DNA from: a virus
DNA length: 64,000 nucleotides
Reading direction: 5' to 3' (one strand)
IMG/VR virus record: IMGVR_UViG_3300020213_000023
Coordinates: 1-64,000 of that record
Part shown: piece after piece, positions 30,092 to 53,319 of the stretch
Layout: every line of letters begins with the position of its first letter
Position numbering within the stretch: the stretch's first letter is position 1
Notes under the pieces: model-generated
Database searches by the model: none
Told to the model about the DNA's origin: nothing
The model's input: the letters and a program-made list of their open reading frames with translations, nothing else
Translations under genes and position numbers: made by a program

Positions 30092-30691
30092 ATGGAAGAA
30101 ACGCGCATTGGTGATTTTTCTCAGCCTCTCGTCCCGAAGCCAGTGACGAAAGCGGCTACAGGGGACACGAAGGTCCGTATGGAGGCAGCCGAGCAGAGCC
30201 TCGAGTCCGAAGCGAGAGATGCGGAAGCCGCACTCAAGCCGCTGAAGTCATACGAGGAGAAGCTGAAGGAGGCGGGAGTCACCAAGGACGAAGCCGCAGA
30301 CATCATCGACTCCGTGTTGATGAAGGGTTTCTGGTCAGAGACGATCAAGATTACGGCGCGCATTTCGATCAAGCTTCGAACACGCAGCGCACGCGACGTT
30401 CGACGCATCCAGGACTACCTGGAAGTTCACCGGCCCGTCTACGACACGCACTACACCGAGATCATGGGACGGATGACGCTCGCGGCGTCGCTCGAACAGC
30501 TGGGCACTGACAAGCTTCCTTTCCCCGGGAAAGATGCCAAGAACGAGGACTACGAAAAGGCGTTCCAAGAACGCGGCAACTACATTGAAGGTCTCGCTGA
30601 CCCAATCCTCCGTTTGCTGTTCCTGAAGCTGTGGGCTTTCGACGAGAAGATTCGCGCTGTTCTCGCGGAAGGTACGATCGAAAATTTCTAG
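30092..30691 (+). CDS. Tail assembly chaperone, short form (gpG-like)
   Basis: A 199-residue acidic helical protein directly upstream of the tape measure gene, the usual place of tail assembly chaperones. It ends EGTIENF at a TAG that is preceded by the slippery heptamer A AAT TTC. In other phages such proteins coat the tape measure and recruit tail tube subunits. The role is inferred from position and the frameshift, not from strong sequence similarity. GGAG precedes the ATG. Confidence 0.7.
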   Translation: MEETRIGDFSQPLVPKPVTKAATGDTKVRMEAAEQSLESEARDAEAALKPLKSYEEKLKEAGVTKDEAADIIDSVLMKGFWSETIKITARISIKLRTRSARDVRRIQDYLEVHRPVYDTHYTEIMGRMTLAASLEQLGTDKLPFPGKDAKNEDYEKAFQERGNYIEGLADPILRLLFLKLWAFDEKIRAVLAEGTIENF

Positions 30692-31104
30692 GCAGCCCAG
30701 GGGGGAATGCACGGGCTGTCCTATTTGCGCGCGGCCTCACGCTTCCGCCTCTGGGCTCCGTAGAAGATCGCGTTCTTCGGGAAACGCTTTTTCGAGAGCG
30801 GCGGGAGCGCGTGGCGCAGGTAGAAGCGTTCGCCAAAATAGCGGCCCGCGTGTTCACCGTGGACCCTATGAAGGCGTTCGGATCGATTATCGCGGAATAC
30901 GAAGCTGAGGTATTCCAGGAGACTTACGACGCAGAGGTTTTGAGGGGGAAAATCGTTGCCATTCGAGAGGCGCAGAAACGGCTTCGCACCAAGCGTCTTC
31001 ACGATGAAAAGATGATCGATCGTCTCGAGCGAATGGGCGAGTACTACGACCACAAACTGGGACCCGACCTCAAGAAAGCACCGACGACGAGACCCGTAAA
31101 GTAG
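30092..31104 (+). CDS. Tail assembly chaperone, -1 frameshift fusion (gpGT-like)
   Basis: A -1 slip at 30682-30688 replaces the stop of the short form and continues in the overlapping frame from CTA at 30688 to a TAG at 31104. This adds 138 residues (LGSPGGNARAVLFARGL and onward), for about 337 in total. The added part is basic and helical with a coiled-coil region. In lambda-like systems the long form joins the tape measure to the tube, and the ratio of the two forms is essential. Confidence 0.68.
30682..30720 (+). promoter_or_regulatory. Programmed -1 frameshift site with hairpin
   Basis: AAATTTC (30682-30688) is read as A AAT TTC in the zero frame, a perfect X XXY YYZ slippery heptamer. 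The TAG stop follows at once. GGCAGCCC (30691-30698) then pairs with GGGCTGTC (30713-30720), an 8-bp stem with one G-T pair and a 14-base loop, which could stimulate slipping. The -1 frame is open for 138 codons downstream. Confidence 0.8.
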
Positions 31105-31140: not shown

Positions 31141-34100
31141 ATGGCGGACCAAGGAGGCGGCGAAACCATAAAGCAGATGCTCTCTGGGTTTAACCAGATG
31201 CAGATGCAGCTTGGTATTCTGCCCGTGCAATCGGCACAGACGCCTATGGGCGTCGGGTTTCAGCCGCCTCCTCCGCCGCCTCAAATCCCGCATCCATCGC
31301 AAGCAGCGATGATGGCGATGGCGCAGCAGCAGGCGATGACGCAGCAGACCATGCAGGCTGCGCAGATGGCGCGTTACATTCCGCCCCCTTCTTCGCCAAT
31401 CGGTGGGGGTGGTGGATACCAGCCGATGAACCCGTACCTCGCGGGCGCGATGAACGGCAACATGGGCGGGATGCCGAATCCGATGATGATGACGGCGCCT
31501 GCGTTTGGCAATTATCGTTCGGGAGGCAATTTTAGCCGTCCACACATTGGACAAGGCCACATCCCACCGATTTTCAATCCGTTTGCGCCGTCAGTACAGC
31601 AATCGCACTTCATGACTCCCGCGATGCAGAACCTGCAAATCATGCAAGGTGTGCAATCGCGCAGCACCGGCATGGCGGCAGGCGCGGTGGACGCAGGGTT
31701 CCGCTTCGGCGGCGCGGCTCTCGGCGCGTTGGCAGGCTCCGCGTTCGGTCCCTTGGGGACTCTCGCAGGCGGCTTCCTTGGTCACCAGATTGGCGGGTTC
31801 CTGGGTGGCATGGCGACGGGGCCGGGCGCCATGGACACCGCGCGAGGTCGTCAGCTCCAGAACATGTCGGCACCCTGGATGGTGTCGGGAGGCATCCTCA
31901 ATCCGTTCACCGGGCAAGGCATGGATCGCGAGGCAGCTCGCTCGACAGCGACAGGCCTGCGCCACATGGCGACACGTGACCACGATTTCCGACGTACAGG
32001 GTTCAACACCGAAGACGTCATGCGCATCACACAGCTGTCCAGCGACCAGGGGCTGCTGACTGCTTCACGGTCGCCCGAAGATGTCCTGCGTAAAGTGAAA
32101 GAGGTCTCGAAAGCGGTCAAGGTCTTGATGCAGATCACGGGCGACCCGGATGTGCGAAACGCAATCGCGTCAATCGGTCAAATGAAGGACCTAGGCTTCG
32201 TCGGCACTGCCGGTCAGGCGGGCGCTGTTGCCAATCGCGCGATGTTCGCGCGTATGGCTGGCGTGTCGCAAGGCGCGATGAACGATGTCTACGGCATGCC
32301 AGGCGCGATGATGGCACAGCAGTCTGGCATGGCAGGGTCCACGGGGTACATGGCGGGCATGGCAGGCGGCGCGGCAGCGAACATCGCGCGCTCGTCCGGC
32401 GCTCTTGATCCATTGCAGATGGCGCGGGCCGGTGGTGTTCAGGGTCTTGGGCAAATCAACGCGATGGCGCAATTGAGTGCGCAGAACCAAGACATCTACA
32501 TGGCGGCGGCCCTCAAGAAGGGCAAGGGGGGCATCGACATCGACATCGACGCATACCGCAAGGCCCAGACGATGTCGATCTCGGAGGTGTCCAAGCTCGC
32601 GGCTGAAAACATGCGAGAGCTGCAAAAGGAAGGTCATTTCGAGCTGGCCACACGCAAGCAGGAGTTCAAAGACAAGCTTGCACAGCAAATGACTCCGTTC
32701 GAGATGCAGATGAACGTGGTGAATCAAGCCCGCGGTCTCCAGAAGTCGGTTCCAGGCATGAACCTTGGCGCCGCGTTGCGCGTCACTGCACAGTCCAATG
32801 CGGTCGGCGCAGGGATGAGCGATGATCAAGCAGAGGCGGCGGGGCGGTCTATGGAGTTGCAGCTCACGAGCCGTGAGTATTGGGACGGCCAACTCCAGCA
32901 AAGAAAAGTTCAACGTCGCGAAGTTGCGCGTTCTGAAAAAGCCAAATGGGACCAGTTCCGCACGCCTGGCTTGGCGACGCGGATGGGCCGCGGCATCGAA
33001 GGAGCTTTCAACGTCGTGAGCGACACTCTTTCTTCGCCGTTCCGAAGCCTGTCCAATCGGATGGACCGCGCAGCAGAGGATGAGGCTGCGATGCATCGCG
33101 GCGAAAGAATCGTGCGACACGGCGCTTCGACGTTGATTGATGACGCTTCCGATCGAGCAATGGCTCGAGGCGCGCTGAAAGATATGCGTGGACGCGGGTC
33201 TTCGCGCGAGATGTCGTTTAACGACGGTCTAGGCGAGCGACTTCTCAATAACGTTGGAAGCTTCTTTGGCCTGTCTAGTACGAGCAGCATGGCTCTAGGC
33301 GCGCTGAAAGATATGCGTGGACGCGGGTCTTCGCGCGAGATGTCGTTTAACGACGGACTTCTCAATAACGTTGGAAGCTTCTTTGGCCTGTCTAGTACGA
33401 GCAGCATGGCTCTAGGCGCGCTGAAAGATATACATGAACGCGGGTCTTCGCGCGAGATGTCGTTTAACGACGGTCTAGGCGAGCGACTTCTCAATAACGT
33501 TGGAAGCTTCTTTGGCCTGTCTAGTACGAGCAGCTCGGTTCGTATTAACGAACTCGCACACGCGTCACGGCAACACATGTTCGGAAATTCGATCGGGGAA
33601 TCCTTCGGGGACCCGCAAGAATCTCTACGTCGCGTCATGGACGTCGTAGGTCAAGCGAAGGCCATGGACCGAGGTCAAACACTAACAGGCACCAAACGCA
33701 GTGACGTGATGGATAAGCTCCGCAAGTCCAGCGGAGTAAACATGGAGAAGGTAGTTTTCAACGCAGCTAGTCGTATCCACTCACTCAGTGGAACTGCAGG
33801 TACGTTTGATTCGGCTTCTGCCATGGGGCTTTCGGAACAAAAGGCCTCGTGGATCGAATCCCTCAAGAAGGGAGGAAAAACGACCGAAGAGGCTGAAAAG
33901 TTCTACGAAGCACACAAGGACGATCTTCACGCGCTGGGCGCGAAAGAACTCATGACGTGGGGCGGAAAAGACGTCAAGGAACGTCTCGGCAGGTCCAAGG
34001 ATATTCAAACTGCCATGGGCGGTATTAGGTCCAGCACAAGCACGTCAGCTGCGGACAAGGTAATCAACGAGAAGCTCGCCGGTGCCGGACTTGGTGCCCT

Positions 34101-34899
34101 TGGTAAAGACTTCTTCAGCGAAGGCCACCTCAAGGCGACGAAGAAGCTCTACGGCAAACACAGCGATGACGCGATTAAACTTGCGACAATGCTTTCTGCG
34201 CGAGGGGAAGGCACCGAAGCAAACAAGGTACGCGCGATGATAGGCATCAATGAAATGATGGGTTCGATGGGGGAAGAGGAATACAGCAAGCTGAAGGGCG
34301 AGGCTGACAAAATTGTAAATACAGCCGATCCGAACGCGCTCAAGGTACTTCGCTACGGTATGGGTGCAGGGACTGACGGGTCTCTCAAAGGCATCTCGGA
34401 ACGGCTTGGTAGTTTGAAAGACTTCTCCGGCGCGCGCATGGCCAAGACCGCCCAGGTTGCCATGCTGGAACATATCCGAGAAGCGACGGGCCGCGCAGAT
34501 GTTGGAGACAGTGTTACCGACGCAATATCACATCTGGACGCTGACGACGAAGACCAGATGCGCTGGTTCACGACGGCGCAACGGGCTCTGTTGAAGAAAG
34601 CACAAGCAGGAGATGAGGACGCCGCGGATGAATTCACACTGTCCCGCACTCCCAAAAGTACGACTGAGACGTACGGAGGTGCAAAGGGCGGCGCGCTGAA
34701 AGCGTACGACGAAGAGACAGCCAAAATGGCTGAACTGGCAGATCAAGTCGCTGTCGAGGGAGGGAGTGCCGCAAACCAACTCCTTGCTGACAGTTCCGTA
34801 ATGCTGGCCAAGGCGTCCGAGGATTTGCAAAAGACCAGCGACAATCTCAAAACTGCGATGAATGCTCCGGCCTGGATGAGCATGTTCGGAGGGAGCTAA
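31141..34899 (+). CDS. Tape measure protein
   Basis: A 1252-residue protein and the largest gene of the window, directly after the frameshifted chaperone pair. The first 170 residues are Met/Gln/Pro/Gly-rich and flexible. Residues 175-230 are a Gly/Ala hydrophobic region (AALGALAGSAFGPLGTLAGG), as in the membrane-active segments of tape measures. The rest is helical. Residues 674-798 contain three near-identical tandem repeats. At about 1.5 angstrom per residue the tail would be near 190 nm. No lytic domain is evident. The ribosome site is weak. Confidence 0.75.
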   Translation: MADQGGGETIKQMLSGFNQMQMQLGILPVQSAQTPMGVGFQPPPPPPQIPHPSQAAMMAMAQQQAMTQQTMQAAQMARYIPPPSSPIGGGGGYQPMNPYLAGAMNGNMGGMPNPMMMTAPAFGNYRSGGNFSRPHIGQGHIPPIFNPFAPSVQQSHFMTPAMQNLQIMQGVQSRSTGMAAGAVDAGFRFGGAALGALAGSAFGPLGTLAGGFLGHQIGGFLGGMATGPGAMDTARGRQLQNMSAPWMVSGGILNPFTGQGMDREAARSTATGLRHMATRDHDFRRTGFNTEDVMRITQLSSDQGLLTASRSPEDVLRKVKEVSKAVKVLMQITGDPDVRNAIASIGQMKDLGFVGTAGQAGAVANRAMFARMAGVSQGAMNDVYGMPGAMMAQQSGMAGSTGYMAGMAGGAAANIARSSGALDPLQMARAGGVQGLGQINAMAQLSAQNQDIYMAAALKKGKGGIDIDIDAYRKAQTMSISEVSKLAAENMRELQKEGHFELATRKQEFKDKLAQQMTPFEMQMNVVNQARGLQKSVPGMNLGAALRVTAQSNAVGAGMSDDQAEAAGRSMELQLTSREYWDGQLQQRKVQRREVARSEKAKWDQFRTPGLATRMGRGIEGAFNVVSDTLSSPFRSLSNRMDRAAEDEAAMHRGERIVRHGASTLIDDASDRAMARGALKDMRGRGSSREMSFNDGLGERLLNNVGSFFGLSSTSSMALGALKDMRGRGSSREMSFNDGLLNNVGSFFGLSSTSSMALGALKDIHERGSSREMSFNDGLGERLLNNVGSFFGLSSTSSSVRINELAHASRQHMFGNSIGESFGDPQESLRRVMDVVGQAKAMDRGQTLTGTKRSDVMDKLRKSSGVNMEKVVFNAASRIHSLSGTAGTFDSASAMGLSEQKASWIESLKKGGKTTEEAEKFYEAHKDDLHALGAKELMTWGGKDVKERLGRSKDIQTAMGGIRSSTSTSAADKVINEKLAGAGLGALGKDFFSEGHLKATKKLYGKHSDDAIKLATMLSARGEGTEANKVRAMIGINEMMGSMGEEEYSKLKGEADKIVNTADPNALKVLRYGMGAGTDGSLKGISERLGSLKDFSGARMAKTAQVAMLEHIREATGRADVGDSVTDAISHLDADDEDQMRWFTTAQRALLKKAQAGDEDAADEFTLSRTPKSTTETYGGAKGGALKAYDEETAKMAELADQVAVEGGSAANQLLADSSVMLAKASEDLQKTSDNLKTAMNAPAWMSMFGGS
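33160..33534 (+). repeat. Three tandem repeats inside the tape measure gene
   Basis: Units of 129, 117 and 129 bases (33160-33288, 33289-33405, 33406-33534) are nearly identical at DNA level. The second lacks 12 bases in frame, and the third has a few changes near its start. Each encodes the ALKDMRGRGSSREMSFNDGL, LLNNVGSFFGLSS pattern. Near-identity at DNA level implies recent duplication. Confidence 0.85.
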
Positions 34900-39500: not shown

Positions 39501-40088
39501 ATTTCCACGGTGAACCTCAACGTGGTCAAGGCCGAACTCGCATCACTCAACCAGTCGATTAACTATCAAATGTCCGTGTTGGTTGCCTCGAACGAGGTGA
39601 ACGCGAAGACCCACGTCATTCATAACCTCGCAGGGGACCGGGAAATCATTCCGTTGCCGTCTGCGGAGGGCGCGTTTCAAGATTACGACGTCGCCATGCG
39701 CTACAACTGGCGCCCGATCTGCACCCTCGATGAATACATCATGTTCCATGACTCCGTGGGAGAAGGTCCGGTCCCTGCGAGTAACCATCCCCGATCGGTT
39801 GGCGCGATGTACTATGATCGTATCCGTCGGATGACGCCCGTACCCGCGGACTTCAAGTTCCCTGCAGGGGCCGACGGTCTCAACGCTGCCGTGGTTGCCG
39901 CTACACCAGAACAAATCGCAGCAGGGGAGGCGCCGGCACACGCGACGGCCATCCCAGGCCTCAAGAGTGGCACCGGCCCTCATGGAACCAACGCACCGGG
40001 TGACTTCCCTCAAGTAAGAGACGACTGGGATAAAATCCTCTTGGCGTACAGAAATAATGTTTACCACGTGAAAGTACCGCGAACATGA
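36546..40088 (+). CDS. Baseplate hub with embedded transglycosylase-like domain
   Basis: A 1180-residue protein. Residues 1-420 form a beta-rich hub-like part (FIVYINGLEVPCKSVSHRYG at the start). After a Thr/Pro linker (about 455-475), VDFALAWIQHESDGTLKTTT, then QRGYFQVTG, resembles the catalytic start of SLT-type lytic transglycosylases, with Glu534 as the candidate acid. A second Pro/Thr/Ala linker (about 715-740) precedes another structural part (FNPYVVPGFPAAIFDRRDTR), as in gp27-type hubs. It probably pierces the cell wall at injection. The C-terminal part has a coiled coil near 930-1000. Confidence 0.6.
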   Translation: MSKPQSGALFSTNDAHSGAFIVYINGLEVPCKSVSHRYGVWQTPEMVLEMVADPVLTRIGAEDRVQVQVFYLDDTKVDPSVSPQFRVFGEGEITGWGYQNTPSGRSIMLTCVNQVAIFTQLFVQFMTNLDDMVAHASDPSAGANAIAVASSNIVYPYALFSEGIVPGEATGQIKRPFDLLYNVIRNMIGSHVSSTTRATPVANFFARWSRLTNFHNRFAAMPFFDEVIDNNIFPVLKALQNTAAVDVLCKSLLPQVQNSGSFWDMLQLVYQTVFMEITMIPTMPLVTVDLRSGHILQTNFDKHKLTMVDGTYVAAAAPDPLKPHRIPNYFAKPQMLFGIPPTCNVIFPSQLKMFAYDENFATQPTRLYFNDETVSKILKIQQGGYGETVMNSLATAYPPEADAANQARLRFPAFNGKSFLLFPEEFFKGPVMDRRNIPPWLFFLKQNEVLNDPSSSDGTTTTPPPPAQTGAATVTSAPITSATAMLTDTRVGTIGKDGKRVFSTNVESLRTDVTRLTRGNTIPVDFALAWIQHESDGTLKTTTSRNQRGYFQVTGPHERGDGTIVKFADSEAAAIGLTEAHTGSGQDSPLLGEEHPLLSTNHEESLQAGVALILYYRKQADTLANTNSLDWSEGDMWRLTKLFHGGAGYAASFIEKAVAANAVDSWANAFTAVTHTLEAPFKKVVDTATGVGSVVPTASGTTLDANSEAIRQAAATPPPATPADVTAPSDGTTSATVAAGTASEADLFEQAREGQQTVYQLYAKYEFFRERYSRRTGSVVLAFNPYVVPGFPAAIFDRRDTRVDVFCYVTTVQQRMSHRGGKETTLSFVYGRTIQEMFDLMRLEFSQGGAAAGTGPREPIRDIRKVVQSFSSSETLYQRLFYGNQILFGKDASFDYRKVIGYQPDVPSDMPDRIVIEGPDEASQDSAERAKEVIAALEASKQAAELRVAVYTQAQRDAQAALSVYEAQAGTALETARDAAQKQFEISTVNLNVVKAELASLNQSINYQMSVLVASNEVNAKTHVIHNLAGDREIIPLPSAEGAFQDYDVAMRYNWRPICTLDEYIMFHDSVGEGPVPASNHPRSVGAMYYDRIRRMTPVPADFKFPAGADGLNAAVVAATPEQIAAGEAPAHATAIPGLKSGTGPHGTNAPGDFPQVRDDWDKILLAYRNNVYHVKVPRT

Positions 40089-40840
40089 GCGTCCTCAAAA
40101 ACGTCGCCAAGCTCGCGTTTGCTGCCGCAGGCACACGACAAGAGCAAGACCTTGCACTATGGCGGAAGTGGAAACAGGCCCCGACGGATGCCAACGCGTC
40201 CGCGCTGCTCAAATCCATCGACCCGCTAATTCAACGAGAAACGAACAAGTGGTCAGGTTCGTTGGCGCGCCCGCTCCTGGAAACGGAAGGTAAGCGTCTC
40301 GCTATGGAGGCGTTCCATAGCTACGACCCGAATCGGGGGGCTGCACTCGGCACGCACGTCGTCAACCAGCTCCAACGGATGTCTCGGCTGTCCTACGCCA
40401 ACCAAAATGCGGCACGGCTACCTGAAAACAAGATGCTCCAGTTCCATGCGTTCACGATGGGGCACGCAACGTTGCAAGACGAGCTTGGACGTGCTCCCAC
40501 GTCTGACGAATTGTCAGACCATCTCGGTTGGTCCAACAAACACTTGACCAAGTTCCGCACAGAGATTGGACACCAAGAACTGCTCGAGTCCGGCGGTATC
40601 GAAGGGTCTTCGGCCGGAACGTTCACAGCAGAGGAGTCCGACCACACCGTCGACTTCATACACCACGACCTGTCCCCCAGACAGAAAGCGATCTTCGAAC
40701 ACCTCACGGGGTATGGGGGCGCCGAAATTCTTTCACATCGACAGATCCAGAAAAAACTGAGTATCACCCAAGGGCAGTATAGTTACGACAAAGCTAAACT
40801 GATCACACACGTTGGAAACGTAACCACGAGGAAGTCGTAA
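40085..40840 (+). CDS. Sigma-factor-like protein
   Basis: A 251-residue protein. FHSYDPNRGAALGTHVVNQL followed by QRMSRL resembles sigma70 region 2 (YDPxRGxxFxTxAxxxIxxxI). ATLQDELGRAPTSDELSDHL resembles region 3 (LxxxLGRxPTxxELA). LSPRQKAIFEHLTGYGGAEI, then SHRQIQKKLSITQGQYSYDK, resembles region 4 with an HTH. It could direct polymerase to phage late promoters. It lies within the tail operon and overlaps the hub stop by four bases. Confidence 0.6.
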   Translation: MSVLKNVAKLAFAAAGTRQEQDLALWRKWKQAPTDANASALLKSIDPLIQRETNKWSGSLARPLLETEGKRLAMEAFHSYDPNRGAALGTHVVNQLQRMSRLSYANQNAARLPENKMLQFHAFTMGHATLQDELGRAPTSDELSDHLGWSNKHLTKFRTEIGHQELLESGGIEGSSAGTFTAEESDHTVDFIHHDLSPRQKAIFEHLTGYGGAEILSHRQIQKKLSITQGQYSYDKAKLITHVGNVTTRKS

Positions 40841-41094: not shown

Positions 41095-41943
41095 GTGAAC
41101 TTTGTACTGAATAGCAATCTGTGGGTGTGGCCGATGCCCAAGATTACCGTGGAAGGTAAGTCTTACCGGCCCAAGGTATCTTCGGGATGGAAGAATAACC
41201 GTACACGTGCGGAGGGCGGGCACGCAGGGTCTGACATCGTTTACGGCGTCGGCAAAAAGGAGCTTCCTCAGTATCAGCCGCCCCGGGATCGCTCCACGGG
41301 TCTCGGACATTTTGTCCCGCCCAACATCCCTGCGTTGAGCACGTGCGACGGTGTCGTCACGTACGCTAAATCGACGTCTAAAGGCTTTGGCGTTCTCATT
41401 GAGCACGAAAAACGAACAGTTCGAACGTTTTACCAACACCTCGAAAAGGTGTTCGTTAAAAAGGACCAAGTCGTCAAAGCAGGGGACACGATCGGAACTG
41501 TCGGGTTTGATCCGTCGAATGACAACTCTGTTCGACACATCCATTTCGAACTCAGCTTTCGCGTCGGGTCTGAGTGGGTAAAGGTCGACCCTGGCACCCA
41601 TGAGAAGGGGTACATGTCCCAGTGGAGGATATGGACAGGCCTTGGCGCAGAGAGTTACCAGGCTTTCGCAGTTGCAGGTTCCTCTGGCTACCGAATCGCG
41701 CAGGCAGCGTCTGCCGGCGCTGTCCAAGTCATCGATCGCGACACCGCGATGAAAAACCAGAACGGCGCAACACACAAACGGGCGCAAGCCGATTACTACG
41801 AACGAGTCGCGCGCGTCATCAACGCTCAAGGGAGCCAGCTGTACGCTGCCATCGCGCAATTCGCGGGAGTTGCGCCTGTCGTGACGGACCCCATGACGTT
41901 CGATTTCACCACCGGCTTGTGGTCGGATGGAAAGGCGGTCTGA
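41095..41943 (+). CDS. M23-family peptidoglycan endopeptidase
   Basis: A 282-residue protein with a GTG start. GGHAGSDIV (His43, Asp47) supplies the HxxxD zinc ligands, GFGVLIEH and TFYQHLEKV follow, and HIHFEL (His148, His150) supplies the HxH motif of LytM/M23 metallopeptidases. Such enzymes cut peptide cross-bridges. Position in the tail operon suggests a virion-borne enzyme that opens the wall for the tail. The C-terminal 80 residues end in the tail shared with the upstream small protein. Confidence 0.8.
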   Translation: MNFVLNSNLWVWPMPKITVEGKSYRPKVSSGWKNNRTRAEGGHAGSDIVYGVGKKELPQYQPPRDRSTGLGHFVPPNIPALSTCDGVVTYAKSTSKGFGVLIEHEKRTVRTFYQHLEKVFVKKDQVVKAGDTIGTVGFDPSNDNSVRHIHFELSFRVGSEWVKVDPGTHEKGYMSQWRIWTGLGAESYQAFAVAGSSGYRIAQAASAGAVQVIDRDTAMKNQNGATHKRAQADYYERVARVINAQGSQLYAAIAQFAGVAPVVTDPMTFDFTTGLWSDGKAV

Positions 41944-41944
41944 C

Positions 41945-42388
41945 ATGTCCCGTTTTGACGTTCACATCCAGCTCACACCCGAAGCAACGGCCGGCGGAGG
42001 ATTCTATGGCTTTGGAGACGTGCGCTCCATTGGTGTCCGTGGCGTGCAGAAGCTGGTCAACATGTTCGCCAAGTACTTGCTCACACCGATAGGAAGCGAT
42101 CCACTCGATCTCACCTACGGTACTGACTTGCCGAACTTGATCGGGTCTAATGTGGACGTTCTCGGCGCCAAAGAAGTTCTCGAACTTTCCGTGGCAAAGA
42201 CAGTACAAGCTTTGCAGAGCTACCAGTCGAGCGTCGAGATCCCGGATGACGAACGGCTCTCGACGGCGTCAGTGACGGACTATATCGTCTTCACCGAGGT
42301 GTCCGGCTTCTCGGCACAGATCTACATTGAAAACATCCTGAACCGGGGGGTCACTGTCCTCCTGCCTAGCTTGGAAGTAGGTTTGTAG
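41945..42388 (+). CDS. Baseplate wedge protein, gp25-like
   Basis: A 147-residue protein. IRSIG-type start (DVRSIGVRGVQKLVNMFAKY), PIGSDPLDLTYGTDLPNLIG and a C-terminal beta part match the GPW/gp25 lysozyme-like wedge family found in all contractile tails, although the sequence is divergent. gp25 nucleates sheath assembly and sits next to J-like proteins, as here. Confidence 0.65.
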   Translation: MSRFDVHIQLTPEATAGGGFYGFGDVRSIGVRGVQKLVNMFAKYLLTPIGSDPLDLTYGTDLPNLIGSNVDVLGAKEVLELSVAKTVQALQSYQSSVEIPDDERLSTASVTDYIVFTEVSGFSAQIYIENILNRGVTVLLPSLEVGL

Positions 42389-50997: not shown

Positions 50998-53319
50998 CTA
51001 GAACTTGACTTCGCAAGCACCGCCGGCACAGGCCGCCTCGCCGGTGAGGTTCGTCCCGTCTTCCAACTCCAGGATCGCCGTGTAGTCGACAGGCTTGTAG
51101 TACGCGATGAGCTGGTTGTATCGCGCTTCATCCGCCTCGGTGACCACGGCTTCATTGGGAGCGAACGCGTAGTCCTTGTCACTCGTCGCGGCGATCAGGC
51201 TGACGCCTGTAAAGAACTCCCGGTTGTCCCAGATGTAATCTGCAACCGCGTCCCATTCGTCCGGATGCACGTGAACCGTGTTGGACACGTTGTGCGTTAG
51301 TCCAGGAGAGACGCTCGTGTCCGCGGTGCCTGGAAGCACCCAGTTTTGTTGGGTGCTGCGTACCATGTCGAGGAACGTGAGCGCCGTCAGGTCCTCCTTG
51401 AGGACCGCACCGGGAGGAGCCTCGACAGGGAACTCGATGACGAATTTCCCGTCGGGCTTCTTTACGCACATGTGCGGGTTGACCGCCTTGAACGCGAGGA
51501 AGACCGTTTCCATCTCGTCGGCAGTCACGCGTCGAATGTAGCGACGGGCGTGGTGCGCGTGATGCCCAGATCCAACGCAGCCCAGCTCGAGGGACGTGGT
51601 CCCTGACGGCTTGACGCAGGTGGTTCGCGCTGCGGGACGAATGCCGATGCGGGCAGCGTATTCGGCGTTCCACTGTTTTACCTTGAGCGCCATCTCGCGC
51701 TGCAACTCCGGGTCACACGAGATCTCGCTAGCGTCGAGCATTCCGGTCATGCCGATGCCGAGAAGCGCCTCACGCTCTGCGATGACCTCGCTCTGCCAGC
51801 CCAGGTACGCCATGTCCGTGTACGCCGCCTGCAGGGTTCCGATGATCGCGGCGGCCTTGGCGGCGACCTCGAAGTCGGCGGGCGACTTGAACATCGCCGC
51901 GTTGATCTCGCACAGGTTGCAGAACGCCCAGCCGGTGATGACGTCGCCCATCTTTACATCGGGAATCGACTTGCCTCGATCGGCACGCTGCGCGAGCAGT
52001 TCGATGAGCTTGCCGTCGACGACAATCTTGGGGTTGAGGCCGATCTCGGCACAGGGGTTTGTGCCGTGGTCGAAGTCGCTGCAGAAGTAGAAGCCCGGCT
52101 CGCCCCACTCCTTGGTCATCTGGATGATCCGCTTGAACTGTTTCTTCTTCACTTCGTCACGCTTGAGCATGACGCTGTTGTTCGCGTTCGAGCGCCACGG
52201 GTGGGTCTTCCACCAGGAGCCAGTCTTGGCGTTGACCATCTCGCTGTCGTCGAGCGAGAACAGGCAGATCATCGCGGAGCGTCGGATACCGCCGCTGAGC
52301 ACAGCGTCAGCTGCGTGACACATGACATCGTGACACTCGATGGGGCGGAGCTTTCGGCCCTGCGCTCCGTCGAGGATCTTGCGAACCTGCTCGAGGGACT
52401 CCTTGAGCCTGCGATGCCCGGGGGCGCGTCCTCCGCTGGTCTTGAGCGGCGTGCCCTTCTTGCGGATCAGCGCGTAGTTGAACTCGATGTTGTAGCCCTC
52501 GACGTAGCTCATCATGAGCGCGTAGAGCGCATCGGCCCAACCCTCGATCGAATCCGCGATGGTGTGGTGCACGACGTTGTCGACGTCGATGAACTTCAGC
52601 GGGGGCAGCTTGTCGACGTGCTCGAACTGCACGGAATAGCCAACGCCGGAGCCGCACAGGAGGAGGAACATCGCCTCCGCGAAAACACGAGGACGATCGA
52701 TGAACGAAAAAGTGCAGTTGTAGATGCGGTTGTTGACTGCTTCAACGGCCGCGCCGCCGAACTGCATCGAACGCATCGACGGCAGCACCCGCTTCTCGAG
52801 CACCTGATCGAACGCCCAGCAGATGTCTGCGTCGAGGCCTACGACATGGGCGAACTTACGTCGATGCATCTCCCGGACTCGTACCACCGTCTCGTGGTAC
52901 AGCTCGCGCCGCATCTCTGCTTGGATGTGGCGGGCGTACTTCGAGTGGTGGATGTACTCTGACACGGCAAGCGGGTCAGGCGTGCGGCGTTGCTGTCTGC
53001 GCTCCGCGTGCTTCTCCCGGTAAACGATGTACGCCCTCGCCACGGCGAAGTGGCGGAACTTCATCAGCGCGATTTCGACGGCGTCTTGGATCTGCTCGAC
53101 GTCGGCCACTTCGGCGCTGAGGGTGTTGATCGCGAGTGCAACGACCTTGCGTACCTTCGCTTCGTCGACCGTGCCTTCCGCCTCTTCCCATGCTTTCCGG
53201 ATAGCGCACTCAATCTTGTGTGAGTCGAACACCTGCAGCGTAGCCCCGTCACGCTTCCGGACCTGAAGAGGTTCCGCTGTTTCCTTGAATGCCGGGTGAT
53301 TGAGCACGCTGATGTCCAT
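50998..53319 (-). CDS. nrdJ: Class II (B12-dependent) ribonucleotide reductase
   Basis: A 773-residue protein. The N-terminus is an ATP-cone (VRKRDGATLQVFDSHKIECA). SMRSMQFGG, NRIYNCTFSF, NPCAEIGL and PSGTTSLELGCVGSGHHAHH are reductase motifs, with active-site Cys in NCTF and NLCEIN and the C-terminal redox pair in CAGGACEVKF. It lacks a partner small-subunit gene, so it fits the monomeric adenosylcobalamin-dependent class. It makes dNTPs for phage DNA and matches thyX, MazG and dNMP kinase. The length is near that of Lactobacillus RTPR (739 residues). Confidence 0.85.
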   Translation of the reverse strand: MDISVLNHPAFKETAEPLQVRKRDGATLQVFDSHKIECAIRKAWEEAEGTVDEAKVRKVVALAINTLSAEVADVEQIQDAVEIALMKFRHFAVARAYIVYREKHAERRQQRRTPDPLAVSEYIHHSKYARHIQAEMRRELYHETVVRVREMHRRKFAHVVGLDADICWAFDQVLEKRVLPSMRSMQFGGAAVEAVNNRIYNCTFSFIDRPRVFAEAMFLLLCGSGVGYSVQFEHVDKLPPLKFIDVDNVVHHTIADSIEGWADALYALMMSYVEGYNIEFNYALIRKKGTPLKTSGGRAPGHRRLKESLEQVRKILDGAQGRKLRPIECHDVMCHAADAVLSGGIRRSAMICLFSLDDSEMVNAKTGSWWKTHPWRSNANNSVMLKRDEVKKKQFKRIIQMTKEWGEPGFYFCSDFDHGTNPCAEIGLNPKIVVDGKLIELLAQRADRGKSIPDVKMGDVITGWAFCNLCEINAAMFKSPADFEVAAKAAAIIGTLQAAYTDMAYLGWQSEVIAEREALLGIGMTGMLDASEISCDPELQREMALKVKQWNAEYAARIGIRPAARTTCVKPSGTTSLELGCVGSGHHAHHARRYIRRVTADEMETVFLAFKAVNPHMCVKKPDGKFVIEFPVEAPPGAVLKEDLTALTFLDMVRSTQQNWVLPGTADTSVSPGLTHNVSNTVHVHPDEWDAVADYIWDNREFFTGVSLIAATSDKDYAFAPNEAVVTEADEARYNQLIAYYKPVDYTAILELEDGTNLTGEAACAGGACEVKF

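Follow-up and report, generated by a model that had tools for sequence, protein, structure and literature searches.

What does the gene just upstream of the putative tape measure gene of this virus, a large tailed phage, encode – one protein, or two that share a beginning? The gene, referred to here as G, ends in a candidate slippery sequence, A AAU UUC, directly before its stop codon, and a second reading frame, T, continues beyond it in the −1 frame. Comparison of the locus with its relatives suggests that a programmed −1 frameshift at A AAU UUC very probably yields both gpG and a longer gpGT, a gpG/gpGT-type chaperone for the tape measure protein. The window analyzed, meaning the whole stretch of DNA under study, is the first 64,000 nucleotides of an IMG/VR virus record of 95,045 bases (IMGVR_UViG_3300020213_000023).

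Gene organization

Gene G (30092–30691, + strand) is a zero-frame ORF of 199 amino acids with the C-terminus ...EGTIENF. Its 3’ end reads GAA AAT TTC TAG (30680–30691): the heptamer lies in the zero frame at 30682–30688 and is directly abutted by the UAG stop at 30689–30691, as a preliminary description of the locus had claimed. That description also gave the −1 frame as open for 138 codons, which was confirmed, from CTA (30688–30690) to a stop at 31102–31104. This T extension (30688–31104, + strand; 138 aa plus stop) begins LGSPGGNARAVLF..., and the predicted fusion protein, gpGT, has 337 aa (199 + 138). The tape measure gene that was said to follow is represented by a large ORF of 1252 aa (31141–34899, + strand) directly after T, in the same order as in the relatives. 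It is a putative tape measure protein, assigned from size and position; in those relatives with complete neighbors, ORFs of 1044–1208 aa are found in this place.

Near the 3’ end of G, a gpG/gpGT pair is expected to have a slippery site beyond which an overlapping second frame stays open. The heptamer should be in phase and of the form X XXY YYZ, and the pair should lie directly 5’ of the tape measure gene. The overlapping frame and the position, with the tape measure assigned as above, are both found here; the in-phase heptamer is found in the window and in most relatives, the exceptions being L049 and L050.

Pfam and PHROG searches returned no family match for G or T and no match for the tape measure ORF, and the window’s G had no match by tblastn against phages or in a direct viral scan with G alone as the query. 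The top PDB match to the AlphaFold model of G (pLDDT 82) is the HK97 tail assembly chaperone 2OB9, a moderate match (E 0.034, probability 0.90, TM 0.28 by query length). In BFVD the model matches annotated tail chaperones (E 5e-5 to 2e-4), including that of Rhodococcus phage Finch, and also gp181 and gp182 of Bacillus phage G (gp181 E 2.4e-4). G may thus encode a putative tail assembly chaperone, with a predicted fold like those of the HK97 and phage G chaperones. The model of T is helical and of modest confidence, and a fold search with it found no match.

Several other features of the surrounding region were observed. At about 33100–33500, within the ORF at 31141–34899, a segment resembling MALGALKDMRGRGSSREMSFNDGL..LLNNVGSFFGLSSTSS occurs roughly three times in near-identical form, possibly a recent length-changing duplication. 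A myovirus baseplate module lies further 3’, with a gp25-like wedge protein at 41927–42388. Within the tail module, the region 40085–40840 encodes a sigma-factor-like protein (PHROG 351, E 7.8e-7), and an annotated RpoS-like sigma factor has the matching position in Salmonella phage Arash. A ribonucleotide reductase-like gene is found at 50998–53319 on the − strand (PHROG 367, E 1.7e-106, with a weaker NrdD-like match).

Conservation of the site in relatives

The family was first opened by a baseplate protein scan. Nine viral records proved to be related, as did, within the phage collection, Salmonella phage Arash, Vibrio phages D69, D181 and D148, and Bacillus phage G. G homologs were next found in three of the nine viral records, and alignment scans added more; they are present in 12 or more records. 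A viral scan with the protein encoded after the tape measure had no match, tblastn of the G and T of one relative (L025) against phages had none, and no relative was found in the genome contig collection. A 13-member alignment of T was too divergent for use as a scan query.

A AAU UUY directly 5’ of UAG or UAA is found at the identical position in more than ten distinct sequences – relatives from independent metagenomes, Arash (GCA AAT TTC TAA) and D69 (TTA AAT TTC TAA) – and is kept in relatives with as little as about 23% identity in G. Profile comparison supported the homology of G to that of Arash and D69 (E 5.5e-11). All relatives in this clade but two have A AAU UUY, and in all that have it the stop is adjacent. 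The 64-kb window has a single AAATTTYTAR, where dinucleotide shuffles would give 0.08. GAA and AAT are retained at the site in genomes in which both are minority codons: the fraction of AAT among AAY codons in neighboring genes is 0.00 in L046 and 0.08 in L024 and L042, and AAT is still used at the site. The main survey of phage tail frameshift sites is reportedly that of Xu et al. 2004, to which PMC5009743 refers. Neither AAAUUUC nor A AAU UUC was found named as a slippery site in the literature searched, and an earlier listing is possible, for example in that survey. A AAU UUC is an uncommon predicted slippery sequence, conserved throughout a phage family that otherwise lacks annotation.

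The two exceptions, L049 and L050, have GAG CAT TTC TAG (G CAU UUC UAG) and keep both frames; they have lost the heptamer’s first triplet, and U_UUC and the stop are left. The preliminary description had proposed a search for the heptamer in relatives and held that its absence from relatives with both frames would refute frameshifting. Most relatives keep it as A AAU UUY, and these two are of the second kind, with U_UUC retained beside the stop. They modify the mechanism and do not refute frameshifting, because of this retention and because U_UU.C ranks second among shift-prone tetramers in E. coli (Sharma et al. 2014, PMC4066793). R_RR.U_UU.Y heptamers are also unusually shift-prone in E. coli (PMC4066793). 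Since two relatives with G CAU UUC UAG have kept both frames, the conserved core of the predicted site is U_UUY plus the stop.

In a more distant clade the heptamer is A AAA AAG, and the stop comes 0–1 codon later. The profile link of its G to the others is weak (E 2.3e-4, probability 45%), so the homology of this clade leans partly on synteny. In one of its members (L029:9855–9885) a run of eight A is found just 5’ of the A AAA AAG heptamer, and polymerase slippage could contribute there.

Sequence and RNA structure around the site

The local hairpin that was previously described as starting in the stop codon, TAGGCAGCCC...GGGCTGTCCTA, does exist in a 36-nt fold (−16.8 kcal/mol, z −2.6 relative to dinucleotide shuffles), and is not unusual relative to synonymous-codon shuffles (p 0.10). 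As a likely stimulator it fared less well – it is absent from the relatives compared and specific to the window, and its predicted probability falls to 0 once at least 68 nt of downstream sequence is folded, when a longer stem wins.

This candidate stimulatory stem (30691–30759, + strand) has a 5’ arm at 30691–30707, a 3’ arm at 30743–30759, and an inner helix between them: AGCCCAGGGGGGAA (30694–30707) pairs with TTCCGCCTCTGGGCT (30743–30757), and GG at 30691–30692 with CC at 30758–30759. The fold has −40.0 kcal/mol in 80 nt with a pair probability of about 1, and its helix starts about 2–5 nt after the heptamer. Because the local hairpin is displaced by this stem, the near-zero spacer reported earlier is not well supported. 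Relative to synonymous-codon shuffles, the pairing of the arms had p 0.0025 and the whole downstream region p 0.003–0.04 for lengths of 68–83 nt and 0.08 at 98 nt; the lengths were chosen after looking, and these p values are indicative. Unusually stable downstream regions are also found in L036, L025, L026, Arash and D69, each with its own pairing. In the clade of L024, L031, L032, L042 and L046 the downstream stem is not significant, and there is a strong GGAGG upstream instead. The stem is not conserved pair by pair among relatives, and strict covariation, which was looked for across them, was not found; clades differ in the register of the helix, and close pairs have too few differences to be informative.

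Upstream of the site in the window is a Shine-Dalgarno-like GGAAGGT (30667–30673, + strand), 8–9 nt 5’ of the heptamer, a candidate 5’ stimulator. Relatives have GGAGGG or AAGGAG 7–10 nt 5’ of the heptamer. Any such role is inseparable from protein constraint, because GGAAGGT overlaps conserved Glu-Gly codons.

Proposed mechanism and alternative explanations

In the proposed mechanism, some ribosomes would move back by one base on A AAU UUC just before UAG, with the Asn and Phe tRNAs re-pairing to AAA and UUU. Slipped ribosomes would continue with CUA GGC AGC... to make gpGT, and the remaining ribosomes would stop at UAG to make gpG. The downstream RNA stem, and perhaps the SD-like element upstream, may raise the frequency of slippage. 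As in lambda, gpG together with a minority of gpGT would then serve the tape measure protein, encoded next, as tail assembly chaperones. The earlier proposal of a programmed −1 frameshift has strong support from the conservation of the site, the chaperone-like predicted fold of G, the scarcity of start codons for T (below), and coding in the −1 frame from the junction onward. Homology in T begins with the codon that directly follows the junction (L..P....R), ahead of any −1-frame start in most relatives, and in codons 2–9 of the −1 frame six close relatives have 54 differences in the third codon position, 13 in the first and 9 in the second.

It could be argued that T is made as a separate protein from a start codon of its own, in a reading frame that overlaps G or is coupled to it, since there is a −1-frame GTG at 30631 in the window, 51 nt 5’ of the heptamer, and T is annotated as its own CDS, starting at an internal ATG, in the records of Arash and D69. 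This is very improbable: most relatives have no −1-frame start 5’ of the heptamer, and their first start is 18–126 nt after the heptamer start, with conserved residues of T preceding it. In L042, L050, G006 and G008 it is 93–126 nt past the heptamer start. The −1 frame itself opens 12 nt before the heptamer in L025, L026, L049 and L050, and 3 nt before it in D69 and L056. Readthrough of UAG or transcriptional slippage, rather than a ribosomal −1 slip, would also account for a stop codon between two coding parts, but has slightly less to recommend it still, as the zero frame meets a stop within some 23 codons and T is not encoded in it, and the site has no long homopolymer run of the kind that polymerase slippage requires (AAAA and TTT only). 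Independent starts, readthrough and transcriptional slippage were rejected on these grounds. The least credible explanation is a chance heptamer beside two unrelated genes; an expectation of 0.08 stop-adjacent sites of this form per window is not astronomically rare, but the conservation of the site at one position in relatives refutes it.

A closer competitor to slippage of two tRNAs, although an unlikely one, is a slip of the Phe-tRNA alone from UUC or UUU to UUU, in which the adjacent stop slows the ribosome, the AAA half of the heptamer only helps, and competition with the release factor tunes the ratio of products. L049 and L050, which keep both frames with G CAU UUC UAG, are consistent with this, as is the high rank of U_UU.C in E. 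coli. Throughout the A AAU UUY clade, without exception, the stop is adjacent, as it is in phage G. The stop at the site is always UAG or UAA and never UGA, though UGA is the commonest stop in the record (22 of 38 ORFs) and Leu could equally be encoded in the −1 frame by CUG or UUG. However, the remaining relatives retain the whole heptamer in spite of their codon bias, which argues that re-pairing to AAA matters in them. Sequence cannot separate a single from a dual slip, because the peptide is identical. A related and comparably doubtful idea is that the family has drifted from two-tRNA slippage at a heptamer towards a one-tRNA U_UUY slip against the adjacent stop, with release factor 1 competition setting the gpG:gpGT ratio; if so, L049 and L050 would retain only the one-tRNA mode.

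Comparison with known systems

The locus almost certainly represents a familiar phage device, the gpG/gpGT-type frameshift, here with an uncommon heptamer and an informative exception. The lambda heptamer is GGGAAAG. As in lambda, where a −1 shift late in the first frame gives the products G and G-T from a chaperone gene before the tape measure gene (PMC5009743), the window has a two-frame chaperone-like gene before the putative tape measure gene, with the predicted shift near the end of its first frame. It differs from lambda in its heptamer, in the stop that touches the heptamer, and in having no detectable sequence similarity to a named family.

Closer likenesses are found in other phages. 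Salmonella phage Arash (gp2/gp3) and Vibrio phages D69, D181 and D148 have homologous G and T in the same gene order, and Arash and D69 share A AAU UUC followed by a stop. They differ from the window in that the stop is UAA, the local RNA structure is different, and two separate hypothetical proteins are annotated (Arash gp2/gp3, L052:1622–2538; D69 _0002/_0003, L053:1536–2395). Each of these pairs looks like one frameshifted chaperone gene, which suggests a function for hypothetical genes of cultured phages. The annotation of Bacillus phage G gives gp182 as a joined CDS for a tail assembly chaperone, and the frameshift site there was read as A AAA AAC with UAG directly after. The gp181/gp182 pair resembles the window in the predicted fold of G, the stop-adjacent heptamer, CUA (Leu) as the first −1 codon, and the tape measure gene next; its heptamer is different, and its T is much longer.

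Judging from the A AAU UUY clade, the distant A AAA AAG clade and the A AAA AAC TAG of phage G, stop-adjacent heptamers recur in this chaperone lineage, whereas the sites of actinobacteriophages have an average distance of 26 nt (PMC10885494). These related genes form a natural series – A AAA AAC/AAG, A AAU UUY and G CAU UUC, all at most one codon from the stop – through which the part played by each slippery codon and by the stop can be tested directly. Stop-adjacent −1 sites are also found in plant viruses, including groundnut rosette virus (AAAUUUU), BYDV and RCNMV, where a large bulged stem-loop has the stop at its base (PMC4737148). These share with the window a slippery heptamer and a stop immediately after it, but they are used by eukaryotic ribosomes, in a polymerase gene and for unrelated proteins, and the likeness is convergent.
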